The position numbers and the translations under genes were made by a program. A stretch of DNA of 24,724 bases from a virus: the IMG/VR virus record IMGVR_UViG_3300042336_000169, positions 1-24,724 of that record, one strand, 5' to 3'. Below, piece after piece: positions 15,967 through 24,724 of the stretch. The notes beneath the pieces are model-generated. The model was not told the DNA's origin, did no database searches, and saw only the letters and a program-made list of their open reading frames with translations. Numbering within the stretch: position 1 is the first letter of the stretch; each line of letters opens with the position of its first letter.

Positions 15967-16764
15967 ATGGGTAAGAGTAAAGCGCCACCGGCACCAGACT
16001 ACGCAGCCCAGGCAAACGCCACCGCAGCGGGTAATTTGGAAATGGCGAGAGCGCAGGCAATGGCGAATCGTGTAAACACCTACACGCCCTACGGTTCGTT
16101 AACCTACACAAACCCTGATACGAGCAAACCGGATGCCTGGAATTCCTACGTGAATTTAGCACCCGAGCAAAAAGCGTTACTCGATCAGCAAAATATAACG
16201 AGCCAGAAATTGGCGAATATGACGGATTCAGTCACGGGTAAAGTGGGTACGGCAATGGATCAAGCATTACCGGATGCCTATGATCCAGCACTTGCAACAA
16301 ACAACGCCGCAGCACTCATTAATACCCGGCTGGCACCACAGCAGGCACGAGAAACCGGCTACCTTGATTCCCAGTTAGCGAACCAGGGAATCATGCCAGG
16401 CAGTGAAGCCTACAACACGGCCAAAACTTTGCAGCAGCAGGGATTCAATGACGCGAAAGTACAGGCCGAATTAGCGGGTATTAACACCGGCCAACAGCAA
16501 CAAGCTCAGACGTATAACCAGGCGATGGGTAACATTAATATGCCGATGAACCAGTTGAACGCATTACGCACCGGCTCTCAAGTTACCAACCCAACATTCG
16601 CAAACGCGCCCGCGCAGGGCATGACGGCTGGCCCTGATTTACTCGGTGCTGCGAATCAGCAGTACAACGCTCAAATGAATGCGGTAAATGCCGATAACGC
16701 AAACTCGTCAAATATGTGGGGTGGGTTGATGAGCTTGGGCGGCATGGGAATGATGGCATTTTGA
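15967..16764 (+). CDS. Internal virion / tail-associated protein
   Basis: A 265-residue protein beginning right after the GNAT stop with GGGGAA as ribosome binding site. The N-terminus MGKSKAPPAPDYAAQANATA, then RVNTYTPYGSLTYTNPD, is a recurrent start of a family in podovirus ejection or tail modules. The rest is Gln/Asn/Ala-rich and helical (QQARETGYLDSQLANQGIMP, AELAGINTGQQQQAQTYNQA), ending in a Gly/Met-rich hydrophobic stretch (GGLMSLGGMGMMAF) that could contact membrane. It is the first of four genes that I read as the ejection-protein set, interrupted by the CysH-like gene. Confidence 0.75.
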   Translation: MGKSKAPPAPDYAAQANATAAGNLEMARAQAMANRVNTYTPYGSLTYTNPDTSKPDAWNSYVNLAPEQKALLDQQNITSQKLANMTDSVTGKVGTAMDQALPDAYDPALATNNAAALINTRLAPQQARETGYLDSQLANQGIMPGSEAYNTAKTLQQQGFNDAKVQAELAGINTGQQQQAQTYNQAMGNINMPMNQLNALRTGSQVTNPTFANAPAQGMTAGPDLLGAANQQYNAQMNAVNADNANSSNMWGGLMSLGGMGMMAF

Positions 16765-17462
16765 AAGTGTTGCAGTTTAGTGGTGGGAAGGATTCGCTTG
16801 CGTGTTTGTTGTTACTGAAAGATCAGTTACATGACATAACCGTCGTATGGGCTGATTCGGGCGACGCATTCCCAGAGACGCATGAGCAAATGCAAATGGT
16901 GCGGGCGATGTGCCCAAATTTTGTAGTAGCCCAGGGCGATGCGAAAGCGGTAATTGAAAAGTTCGGTTATCCCACGGATCTGCTGCCAGTATCAAACCAC
17001 TCTCAAGTAATGCAATTATCATCACAGGATAAGTTGCCGCTACAGGGCTATTTAGAATGTTGCGTACGCAGTTTTTTAGAGCCGATGCACAAGAAAACGC
17101 TCGAGCTCGGTGCCACGATGATCATTCGCGGACAGAAAGCCTGCGACAAAAAGAAAGCACCTATTAAGTCGGGTGATGTTGTCAATGGGATCGCCTACTG
17201 GTTCCCACTTGAGCACTGGACGGATGAACAGGTGATGGAATACGTAGAAGGTAGCCCGCTGCTGCCACTGCATTACGCTACCGCAAACACCAGTTTGGAC
17301 TGTATGCACTGCACTGCGTATTTATCAGATAACGCCTGGAAGCTGCCCTATTTAAAGCGCAACCATCCAACGGTTGCCACCGAAGTGCTACACCGTTTAA
17401 ATGAAATAAACGACGAAATAGAATCCGAATACAAAAACTTAAAAAGGGTGCTGAATGGATAA
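16761..17462 (+). CDS. CysH-family (PAPS/APS reductase-like) PP-loop protein with probable [4Fe-4S] site
   Basis: 233 residues from TTG 16761, overlapping the upstream TGA; GTG 16767 is an alternative start. Residues 6-12, FSGGKDS, are the PP-loop of the adenine-nucleotide alpha hydrolase fold. VVWADSGDAFPETHEQM follows, then IIRGQKACDKKKAPIKSGDV and WFPLEHWTDEQVMEYV, all standard for the CysH family. Cysteines C100-C101 (ECCVRSFLEPMHK) and C181/C184 (CMHC) form a CC-x79-CxxC pattern, the ligand set of assimilatory APS reductases. The C-terminal ECG(L/I)H catalytic cysteine motif of those enzymes is absent: the chain ends LKRVLNG. A normal sulfate-assimilation role is therefore doubtful; DNA/RNA thiolation or another sulfur transfer is possible. 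It is embedded among internal virion genes. Confidence 0.88.
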   Translation: MKVLQFSGGKDSLACLLLLKDQLHDITVVWADSGDAFPETHEQMQMVRAMCPNFVVAQGDAKAVIEKFGYPTDLLPVSNHSQVMQLSSQDKLPLQGYLECCVRSFLEPMHKKTLELGATMIIRGQKACDKKKAPIKSGDVVNGIAYWFPLEHWTDEQVMEYVEGSPLLPLHYATANTSLDCMHCTAYLSDNAWKLPYLKRNHPTVATEVLHRLNEINDEIESEYKNLKRVLNG

Positions 17463-22791: not shown

Positions 22792-22820
22792 GCTGGGCTA
22801 GGAAGCAACATCACCGAAAA

Positions 22821-22834
22821 GGGGCCAGCGCCCC
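22821..22834 (-). terminator. GC-rich hairpin after the virion operon, terminator-like on the - strand
   Basis: GGGGC (22821-22825) pairs with GCCCC (22830-22834) over the loop CAGC. On the + strand it is followed by CTGCCACTTTA, a poor T run. On the - strand it is followed by TTTT. It lies 30 bp after the last tail gene and may end transcription imperfectly in the + direction. Strength is uncertain. Confidence 0.45.
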
Positions 22835-22885
22835 CTGCCACTTTATTTGCCTGCCGTAGCTACCATACTTCCCAATTTCTGAATA

Positions 22886-22974
22886 GGGGGTAGGGTGGGT
22901 GGGTTAGCCATTTAATGGGTGGGTAGGTTAGCCCAAACCCGCATGGATAGTGGTTCTAATGGGTGGGTAAGTTA
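22886..22974 (+). repeat. G-rich direct repeats with a canonical G-quadruplex motif
   Basis: Three copies of the unit GGGTGGGTxGGTTAGCC or a close variant begin at 22893, 22917 and 22961; the third diverges after GGGTGGGTAAGTTA. The first copy, together with GGGGGTA just before it, makes GGGGGTAGGGTGGGTGGG (22886-22903). That is four G-tracts with loops of 2, 1 and 1 nt, among the most stable quadruplex patterns. No protein-coding explanation is visible. Confidence 0.75.
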
Positions 22975-22993
22975 TTTTAGGATTTTCAATTGA

Positions 22994-23043
22994 AACCTAG
23001 TTATTAATTAGGTTTAACCTAGTTATTAATTAGGTTTAACCTA
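22994..23043. repeat. Tandem 22-bp palindromic repeat (two copies plus a third half)
   Basis: The unit runs 22994-23015 and is repeated exactly at 23016-23037; AACCTA at 23038-23043 begins a third copy. Each unit is a dyad: AACCTA at the left, TAGGTT at the right, and an AT-rich centre (GTTATTAAT). Exact tandem palindromes of this size suggest protein binding by a dimer (repressor operator or accessory factor). An AT-rich bend in an attachment site is an alternative. Confidence 0.8.
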
Positions 23044-23060
23044 ATATTCTTTATTCTGCT

Positions 23061-23099
23061 GTGTCGCTATTACGTGAAAATTCTTGTAGTGTCGCTATT
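23061..23099 (+). repeat. Direct repeat GTGTCGCTATT, two copies 28 bp apart
   Basis: The 11-mer occurs at 23061-23071 and 23089-23099, start-to-start 28 bp. It is too exact for chance in so short a span and may be a binding site pair. No function is assigned. Confidence 0.6.
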
Positions 23100-23108
23100 C
23101 CAGAAATG

Positions 23109-23157
23109 CCCACTTGCCCACCCCAGACTGCCCACCCCAGTATTCCCCAGATTCCCC
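23109..23157 (-). repeat. C-rich repeats, G-quadruplex-capable on the - strand
   Basis: TGCCCACCCCAG occurs exactly at 23129-23140 and, as TTGCCCACCCCAG, at 23115-23126; shorter CCCCAG/CCCCA units follow to 23157. On the - strand, 23109-23138 gives at least four G-tracts of three or more with short loops. It is partly complementary to the G-rich repeats about 210 bp upstream, so the two could pair. Confidence 0.6.
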
Positions 23158-23290
23158 ATTCTAGTACCGCGACGGCTCGTACCGTCCGCACCTGTAAAAT
23201 TCCCTTTATATTAATAAAGCAAAATAATTAGGCTCGAACGTAACTGAACCTGGTGTGGATAGCGGCCGTTATAGGGCGTTAAATCATGCG

Positions 23291-23371
23291 GACACCATCC
23301 TGACACCAAAATCGTGGAAAACCCGCGTAGAATATATAGAGTTCGACTCCGGCTTCGGGCACCAACGGGAT
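23291..23371 (+). other. att-like module 1: paired GACACCA sites plus tRNA 3'-end sequence
   Basis: GACACCA at 23291 and 23302 (11 bp apart) is followed by a tRNA-type 3' end: T-loop TTCGACT (23342-23348), T-stem 3' strand CCGGC (23349-23353), acceptor strand TTCGGGC (23354-23360), discriminator A, then CCA (23362-23364). The spacing 7-5-7-1-3 is exactly that of a tRNA. No matching 5' half (expected GCCCGAA acceptor, D-arm, anticodon arm) lies upstream, so this is not a complete tRNA gene. It is what an attachment core inside a tRNA gene looks like. The T-stem 5' side does not pair, so it is a remnant or the phage copy. Confidence 0.65.
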
Positions 23372-23458
23372 TTGTAGCTCCCCCAAAAATAGTATAAAAA
23401 AAGGGGGGGGGTTGCCGGTTCGGATCCTTTTTTTCGCCCTTTTTTATGTCGCTGTCAT

Positions 23459-23537
23459 GACACCATTTGGACACCAGAGCCCCGGAAAGCCGCATGGAAT
23501 ATAGTGGGTTCGACTCCGGCTCGAGGCACCACGGGAT
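23459..23537 (+). other. att-like module 2: diverged duplicate of module 1
   Basis: The same order as module 1: GACACCA at 23459 and 23470 (11 bp apart), then T-loop TTCGACT (23509-23515), CCGGC (23516-23520), acceptor strand TCGAGGC (23521-23527), A, CCA (23529-23531), then CGGGAT as in module 1. By eye the two modules align over their whole length with two single-base gaps and about three-quarters identity, 168 bp apart start-to-start. The acceptor strands differ (TTCGGGC and TCGAGGC), so they may derive from different tRNA genes or have drifted. This copy is nearest the integrase. Confidence 0.65.
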
Positions 23538-23568
23538 ACTAAATACATAATATAGTATTTGAATGTAT

Positions 23569-23606
23569 AAGCTCTAAACCCAGTAAAATAGGGCATTCCA
23601 GAGCTT
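23569..23606. other. Hairpin between att-like module 2 and the integrase promoter
   Basis: AAGCTCT (23569-23575) is the exact reverse complement of AGAGCTT (23600-23606). CCC (23579-23581) and GGG (23591-23593) can continue the stem inside. An AT-rich inverted repeat AAATAC/GTATTT (23541-23560) lies just upstream. No T run follows, so it is not a clear terminator. It may be an accessory protein site. Confidence 0.4.
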
Positions 23607-23634
23607 CTGCACCGCCACAAGAAAATCCCATAAG

Positions 23635-23664
23635 TTGACATAAAAACCCATATTCTGGTATCTT
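23635..23664 (+). promoter_or_regulatory. Sigma-70-type promoter for the integrase
   Basis: A perfect -35 TTGACA (23635-23640) and a -10-like TATCTT (23659-23664) are separated by 18 bp. The integrase ATG is 59 bp downstream of the -10. GACACCA sites at 23666, 23677 and 23698 occupy the predicted start site and leader, so a protein binding them would block transcription. Confidence 0.6.
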
Positions 23665-23665
23665 G

Positions 23666-23704
23666 GACACCATAAAGACACCAAATTATCGTTTTTGGAC
23701 ACCA
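23666..23704 (+). repeat. GACACCA heptamer array across the integrase promoter
   Basis: Exact GACACCA copies at 23666-23672, 23677-23683 and 23698-23704, start-to-start 11 and 21 bp, so about one and two helical turns. The same heptamer, also 11 bp apart, flanks both tRNA-like cores. Candidate integrase arm-type or regulator sites. Confidence 0.75.
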
Positions 23705-23722
23705 AAAAAATGGGGCTCTCAA

Positions 23723-24724
23723 ATGGCATATATCACAAAGCGCGGTGAGGGGTACAGGGTAGTAGTAACTCATACAACCCCGTCTGGTAAGGTGCGTTAT
23801 ACACACACAGCCAAGACAAAACAGGAAGCAGCAGCCTGGGCAGTGGATACGAAGCGCGATCTGGAACGTAAAAAAATTGGGCTGGCACCCGTAAAGCTCA
23901 CCGTTAAAGAACTGTTCGACAGATACATAGCAGAGGTATCAGTTAATAAAAAGGGCGGGGATAAAGAGATCCTTCGGCTTAACGCATTCAAAAGAGAGCC
24001 CTGGGCGGCTTTGTGCATTGATGATATTAAAACGGCGGATTTGGTTGCTTGGCGAGATCGACGGTTAAAAGTAGTCAAAGGTTCTTCAGTCAACCGTGAC
24101 TGCAACACGCTCTCAAACGTATTTCAAACTGCGGTAAAAGAATGGAACTGGATGTCGTCGTCACCCTTAACCGCGATGCGCCGCCCGCCAGAAGGTGCTG
24201 GCCGAGAACGCCGCTATACCGCTGATGAGCTCAAAAACCTATTATTTTGTCTTGGTTACGCGAAAGATACTACGCCGGATACTATTAAAGCGCGAGTAGG
24301 CGCTGCACTGCTTTTTGCAATTGAAACCGCAATGCGAATCGGTGAAATATGCGCTTTAAACTGGGGGGATGTGGATTTAGATGCCCGATTCTTACGGGTA
24401 CGTGGCGTGGATATTGGCGCAGGTAAAAGCCTGGCAGCCAAAAGAGAGGTGGCATTAACGTCTGAAGCGATCCGAATACTGCGCCAAATGACACCAAATA
24501 ACACCAATGGACACCAAGCGGACACCATTTCGGACACCATTTTTAACTTAACCCCCAAACAACAGGACTCAAATTTTAGAAAGGCAAAAAAACAAGCGGG
24601 AATTACTAACTTAACTTTTCACGATAGCAAGCATGAAGCTATCACCCGGTTGGCGCAAAAACTACTGCCACTAGAATTGGCTAAGATGGTGGGGCACAAG
24701 GATCTTAAAATCACAATGAGGTAT
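23723..24724 (+). CDS. int: Tyrosine recombinase (phage integrase), 3' partial
   Basis: 334 codons from ATG 23723 to the window edge; GGGG lies 8 bp upstream of the start. Residues 1-50 look like the three-stranded arm-binding domain, 58-155 the SAM-like core-binding domain, and 164-334 the catalytic domain. Catalytic candidates are R205 (TAMRIGE), K240 (AAKREVAL), H300, H325 (VGHKD), and Y334, the last codon in the window. At the ArgII position the sequence is HDSKHEAITRL, Lys303, whereas relatives have HDSRHEA. A stretch at 256-272 (MTPNNTNGHQADTISDT) is encoded by GACACCA-type repeats and lies in a loop of variable length. The integrase would recombine phage and tRNA-gene attachment sites. 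It reads away from the att-like modules into the unseen early region. Confidence 0.93.
   Translation, partial: MAYITKRGEGYRVVVTHTTPSGKVRYTHTAKTKQEAAAWAVDTKRDLERKKIGLAPVKLTVKELFDRYIAEVSVNKKGGDKEILRLNAFKREPWAALCIDDIKTADLVAWRDRRLKVVKGSSVNRDCNTLSNVFQTAVKEWNWMSSSPLTAMRRPPEGAGRERRYTADELKNLLFCLGYAKDTTPDTIKARVGAALLFAIETAMRIGEICALNWGDVDLDARFLRVRGVDIGAGKSLAAKREVALTSEAIRILRQMTPNNTNGHQADTISDTIFNLTPKQQDSNFRKAKKQAGITNLTFHDSKHEAITRLAQKLLPLELAKMVGHKDLKITMRY
24490..24539 (+). repeat. GACACCA array inside the integrase reading frame
   Basis: GACACCA occurs at 24490, 24510, 24521 and 24533, with a one-base variant AACACCA at 24500. Start-to-start spacings are 10, 10, 11 and 12 bp. The frame shifts between copies, so the repeats are conserved as DNA, not as a peptide repeat; they encode residues 256-272 of the integrase. 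Confidence 0.85.

Follow-up and report, generated by a model that had tools for sequence, protein, structure and literature searches.

A probable tRNA-Leu phage attachment site with two tandem P-arm and core modules carrying different tRNA 3' ends

In an integrated prophage, the attachment core separates the structural genes from the integrase gene. An element that targets a tRNA gene must restore the tRNA that it interrupts, and its attP thus carries host-specific sequence. Mycobacteriophages with tRNA-dependent lysogeny deal with this problem differently, bringing a whole tRNA gene since their attP does not rebuild the tRNA of the host (PMC10865867). In the KplE1 prophage, sites for recombination proteins lie at the intS promoter and allow the integrase to regulate its own gene (PMC2951348). 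The locus described here is, with good confidence on the evidence of its sequence, the attP of a temperate tailed phage whose lambda-type tyrosine integrase targets the 3' end of tRNA-Leu(UAA), and it has a second copy of the P arm and core that carries another tRNA end.

An unintegrated attachment region with two modules

The window, meaning the whole stretch of DNA that was analysed, is an entire IMG/VR virus record of 24,724 bases, classed as linear. Its genes for the terminase large subunit, portal, major head protein, tail and other structural proteins all run in one direction and lead directly into module 1, module 2, a further repeat pair designated P' and a tyrosine integrase gene. The integrase gene (23723..24724, plus strand; PF00589, E 4.5e-23; phrog_1 integrase, 8e-55) is cut by the end of the record. 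ARAGORN detected no tRNA anywhere in the window, the record being a fragment. Because the structural genes, on the left, run straight into the modules and the integrase gene, on the right, the region is an unintegrated attP, of virion, replicating or circular DNA, and not an attL or attR junction of a prophage. In this configuration, the search for a partner site at the other prophage end that the initial annotation had proposed does not apply to the record.

Other features of the record were observed in passing. It begins within a frame (1-141) that resembles the C-terminus of a LuxR-type helix-turn-helix protein, and a relative, L146, reaches about 2.6 kb farther upstream than the record start. 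A gene of the phosphoadenosine phosphosulfate reductase family (16716-17462; phrog_424, E 8.7e-24) lies amid the structural genes. Between the last structural gene and the attachment region, a 22-bp unit, AACCTAGTTATTAATTAGGTTT, forms a perfect tandem pair with palindromic ends (22994-23037) and is operator-like; repeats of the TAATGGGTGGGTAGGTTA type (22889-22974) are also found upstream of the attachment region.

The two modules lie on the plus strand with their starts 168 bp apart, module 1 (23291..23371) upstream of module 2 (23459..23537). Each consists of a pair of GACACCA heptamers followed by sequence in tRNA order, namely the T-loop TTCGACT, the T-stem strand CCGGC, a 7-nt acceptor strand, an A and CCA, and these stretches end at 23364 and 23531. 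The acceptor strand is TTCGGGC in module 1 and TCGAGGC in module 2. The alignment of the modules covers about 80 bp and is sharply bounded, running from the first GACACCA to a CGGGAT just past the CCA that is common to both, with a score of 66 against a maximum of 32 among 2000 shuffled pairs; in the same comparison, their flanks did not align beyond this stretch. The two modules and their differing acceptor strands, first noted from inspection of the letters, were thus borne out by coordinates, shuffles and alignment, and the likeness recognised in the tRNA part proved to extend over about 80 bp. The 87-bp spacer (23372..23458) is homologous to neither the upstream flank of module 1 nor the downstream flank of module 2, and a plasmid search with it gave no meaningful match. 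No IHF-like consensus was found in 22801-23760. A single core is usual, though not strictly defining, for a lambda-type attP; here there are two in tandem, 168 bp apart. Judged by its sequence, module 1 is best described as an extra copy of the P-arm pair and core, and module 2 as belonging to an ordinary attP.

Arm-type heptamers and the integrase

GACACCA occurs in the window as three pairs, each with 11-bp spacing, at 23291/23302, 23459/23470 and 23666/23677 on the plus strand. The candidate arm-type pair of module 1, P1 (23291..23308), is supernumerary, being the third pair where integrase relatives have at most two; P2 (23459..23476), in module 2, is the canonical P-arm pair, and P' (23666..23683) is a candidate arm-type pair whose position relative to the int ATG matches that in relatives. 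A single copy, an additional candidate arm-type site, precedes the int start (23698..23704, plus strand). The repeats had been described as two pairs, which are real, and the description is now extended by the third pair, the single copy and an array within int. Of the 13 copies in the window, 11 fall in 23291-24539. The whole window would be expected to contain 2.46, and none of 100 shuffles exceeded 6, which excludes chance as the source of their clustering.

The geometry of these repeats was compared with that at four integrase relatives, which use different arm heptamers and whose integrases are only 34-41% identical, a distance that limits the argument. The arm heptamer is TACGCCA in TRS1, PAN70 and ANC 7933 and TGCACCA in a Kingella plasmid. 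Each relative has two heptamer pairs of 11-bp spacing, one just before the int start and the other 185-209 bp upstream of that first pair, at -234/-223 and -26/-15 relative to the int ATG in TRS1, -267/-256 and -60/-49 in PAN70, -212/-201 and -27/-16 in the Kingella plasmid and -247/-236 and -38/-27 in ANC 7933. The putative attP annotated in the TRS1 record sits between its two arm pairs. In the window, the corresponding positions are -264/-253 and -57/-46, with the extra pair at -432/-421 and the single copy at -25. The 207 bp from P2 to P' fall within the range of the relatives and, together with the 11-bp pairs, argue that module 2 is part of an ordinary attP: the integrase gene lies beside the site, and arm repeats flank the core in the conserved geometry. 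Module 2, the P' pair and int thus have the make-up of a complete single-core attP, in which GACACCA is the putative arm-type heptamer.

GACACCA pairs were also found at tRNA-derived cores in unrelated elements (L145, L143, L118, L108 and L040/L100/L131), one of which sits in a Rubrobacteraceae MAG. In L145, a GACACCA pair is followed by a tRNA 3' end, two more copies and the presumed int start. Furthermore, pairs adjoin integrase genes in L035, L064, L069 and L110. Most of the pairs recovered by a simple pattern scan have no integrase nearby by profile and look like coding repeats or chance occurrences. Because other heptamers occupy the same places in the relatives and GACACCA pairs recur at tRNA cores elsewhere, these pairs are most likely arm-type integrase sites, and the heptamer in 11-bp pairs is apparently widespread across unrelated elements. 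The proposal that the modules are attachment sites carrying tRNA 3' ends gains support from the same observations.

The window integrase departs from its relatives in two respects. Its second catalytic box reads HDSK (HxxK), where all eleven aligned relatives have HxxR; of the catalytic set R-K-H-R-H/W-Y, the second Arg is replaced by Lys, and the record stops before the Tyr. The HDSKHE codons lie at about 24621-24638, and an assembly error is possible, because this site is only about 90 bases from the end of the record. Given the Lys at a normally invariant Arg and the missing end of the gene, the activity of the integrase is uncertain. In addition, five arm-like motifs (four GACACCA and one AACACCA), 10-12 bp apart, form an array inside the int frame (24490..24539, plus strand). 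They are read in all three frames and lie in an insert of about 9 amino acids absent from the eleven relatives, and in ten relatives no array of their own heptamer was found inside int. Four or more exact GACACCA copies arose in 0.2% of synonymous shuffles with the peptide held fixed, which suggests selection or duplication of the array at the DNA level. By analogy with KplE1, it may permit autoregulation of the integrase gene; another possibility is that it lengthens the P' arm.

Two versions of a tRNA-Leu 3' end

Core 2 (23507..23531, plus strand), GGTTCGACTCCGGC-TCGAGGC-ACCA, was found as an exact 25-mer in nine contigs, and in all nine of these other contigs the sequence GGTTCGACTCCGGCTCGAGGCACCA is the exact 3' end of a complete tRNA-Leu(UAA) gene. 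Core 1 (23341..23364, plus strand), GTTCGACTCCGGC-TTCGGGC-ACCA, was found as an exact 24-mer in no other sequence, tRNA genes included; its T-stem and acceptor strand are common in combination with T or G at tRNA position 60. The search for complete tRNA genes with each end that had been suggested at the outset, run here on contigs, thus succeeded exactly for TCGAGGC and, for TTCGGGC, through these position-60 variants. Core 2 is accordingly identical to a bacterial target, whereas core 1 matches one only to one base. TTCGGGC occurs in tRNA context in at least 119 contig stretches, and among the matches listed, 63 of the 72 recognised tRNAs are tRNA-Leu(UAA), the rest being a few tRNA-Leu(CAA) and tRNA-Leu(GAG) and one tRNA-Thr. 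In four of six viral contigs tested (L261/L255, L315/L252, L265/L318 and L300/L322), a complete tRNA-Leu(UAA) close to one contig end is accompanied by a truncated 3' copy close to the other, from which it follows that the TTCGGGC tRNA-Leu(UAA) is a used attB. The sequences thus point to the tRNA-Leu(UAA) gene as a common site of phage integration.

As tRNA-Leu(UAA) accounts for most occurrences of either acceptor strand, the likeliest reading of the two ends is that different bacteria contributed two alleles of a single isoacceptor. The initial annotation had spoken of different tRNA 3' ends; the sequences do differ, but they need not come from different tRNA genes, given tRNA-Leu(UAA) in 9/9 and 63/72 cases among the matches listed. 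Since TTCGGGC is also found in a few tRNA-Leu(CAA) and tRNA-Leu(GAG) and in one tRNA-Thr, core 1 might instead derive from another tRNA-Leu gene within the same host. In acceptor-stem pairing, tRNAs beginning GCCCGAA pair at 7/7 positions with core 1 and 4/7 with core 2, and those beginning GCCTCGG pair at 7/7 with core 2 and 6/7, partly as G-U, with core 1. Core 2 holds the inverted repeat TCGA-CTCCGGC-TCGA, and the central CTCCGGC, common to both cores (23347-23353 and 23514-23520), is the predicted 7-bp overlap, with putative core-binding sites in inverted orientation on either side.

These features suggest a mechanism. The N-terminal domain of the integrase would bind the GACACCA pairs, and its catalytic domain would exchange strands within CTCCGGC, common to both cores. 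Once the phage has inserted, the acceptor strand that it carries to the right of the overlap would rebuild the target tRNA. Each core should suit only hosts with the matching tRNA-Leu allele, as the acceptor 5' strand of the host has to pair with the new 3' end. In a GCCCGAA host, a phage with core 2 alone should damage the tRNA, which would give it reason to hold or change cores. The tandem modules may thus record a change of host allele, with module 1 perhaps derived from an attR or attP that arose at a GCCCGAA...TTCGGGC host, or taken over from a phage of that host type.

The origin of module 1 and comparison with known systems

What module 1 does at present is the point on which explanations diverge. 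It has about an even chance of being a remnant without present function, either an old attR (P arm, core and a little host DNA) or a borrowed half of an attP, joined on the upstream side of the present attP by illegitimate or homologous recombination. Only module 2 stands at the canonical distance to P', and the 87-bp spacer is unlike the phage flanks, as expected if some of this spacer has another source. However, its arms and core are without visible decay, and the CGGGAT that follows CCA in both modules is not predicted by a plain host flank unless the hosts share it. The alternative that both cores are used, giving the phage access to hosts with one or the other tRNA-Leu allele, or to a pair of tRNA-Leu genes in a single host, is possible though on balance doubtful; the P' arm for core 1 would then be either the arm pair of module 2, which follows core 1 by 94 bp, or the distant P'. 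Here the same lack of decay becomes an argument in favour, for the modules agree at every position of the arms (14 nt) and of the shared core (13 nt), while 14 of the 37 other aligned positions, counted by hand on the alignment, differ (Fisher p 1.4e-4). Core 1 also ends in a complete, valid acceptor strand with ACCA that pairs 7/7 with a real tRNA-Leu(UAA), and the P2 pair, 168 bp after P1, is oriented like the P' pair. This distance nevertheless falls outside the 185-209 bp of single attPs, no attP compared has two cores, and, taken alone, identical arms still have a probability of about 0.05 in a neutral copy (0.81^14). Identity of arms and core amid so many differences argues against a long period of neutral drift in module 1, though a recent acquisition would look alike. 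It is rather unlikely that a single attP holds two functional cores that each rebuild a different tRNA-Leu allele and share an arm pair, used as P arm by one and as P' arm by the other, so that a single integrase serves hosts with differing acceptor stems. We lean slightly toward module 1 as a former core that has been kept, over its being in regular use.

Tandem arrays are commonly seen at tRNA genes, and the two tRNA ends lie in one strand order, as would suit two elements stacked at one chromosomal tRNA locus, a prophage attR beside a second element. This reading, raised in the initial annotation, is improbable in a record with one integrase, no complete tRNA, no second attL and structural genes that lead directly into both modules and int; moreover, a second integrated element would join its int to a core, not to another P arm. 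More improbable still is that the tRNA-like ends are coincidental and that GACACCA serves as an operator for replication or for a repressor. The array inside the int reading frame would suit such an operator, but identical pairs also accompany tRNA cores in unrelated elements, and in the relatives other heptamers take their place.

A second tandem case, defined as two incomplete tRNA tails within 400 bp, was not encountered among about 350 loci scanned, and a search of viral and genome contigs for a GACACCA pair with a T-loop returned only single-module or chance matches. The inner sequence of the modules had no match on search, and no phage record matched the att-int DNA, nor was a lysogen or host genome found; even L146, otherwise 93-95% identical in DNA, has no match to this region. 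Relatives of the window terminase yielded integrases in 8 of 38 other records, all distant, and the loci of these eight lack comparable arm pairs and tRNA tails. In the literature searched, no relevant description of two-core attPs was found (open-licence papers only, and so weak evidence of absence), nor any of the GACACCA 11-bp pair motif. The region is thus an attP of known kind, and its tandem P-arm and core units with two tRNA-Leu versions are a variant for which no second case was found. An attP with two versions would directly trace the movement of an element between hosts of different tRNA alleles and would offer a testable case for core switching or dual-core host range. Finally, GACACCA 11-bp pairs at tRNA cores or beside integrases would help to locate attachment sites in metagenomic phages.

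Among described systems, the closest are vB_AbaS_TRS1 (an Acinetobacter phage) and PAN70 (a Pseudomonas phage), which belong to the same integrase group and likewise have two 11-bp heptamer pairs around the core, 207-208 bp apart, with the second just before the int start; they differ in their heptamer, TACGCCA, in their single core and in integrases only 36-37% identical to that of the window. With mycobacteriophages of tRNA-dependent lysogeny, the locus shares the need to supply a tRNA that arises when an essential tRNA gene is the target, but its attP carries the tRNA 3' end itself, in two versions (PMC10865867); the window, part of a fragmentary record, encodes no complete tRNA of the target isotype. 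The attL/intS region of KplE1 is alike in having arm sites at the int promoter and differs in its single core, at argW, and in that no arm array inside int is reported (PMC2951348). Phage lambda provides the general model of a tyrosine integrase with arm-type and core-type sites, and the core-binding and catalytic domains of the window integrase match lambda Int chains; in contrast to lambda, the window has two P-arm and core units, a tRNA target and a short heptamer arranged in helical pairs.
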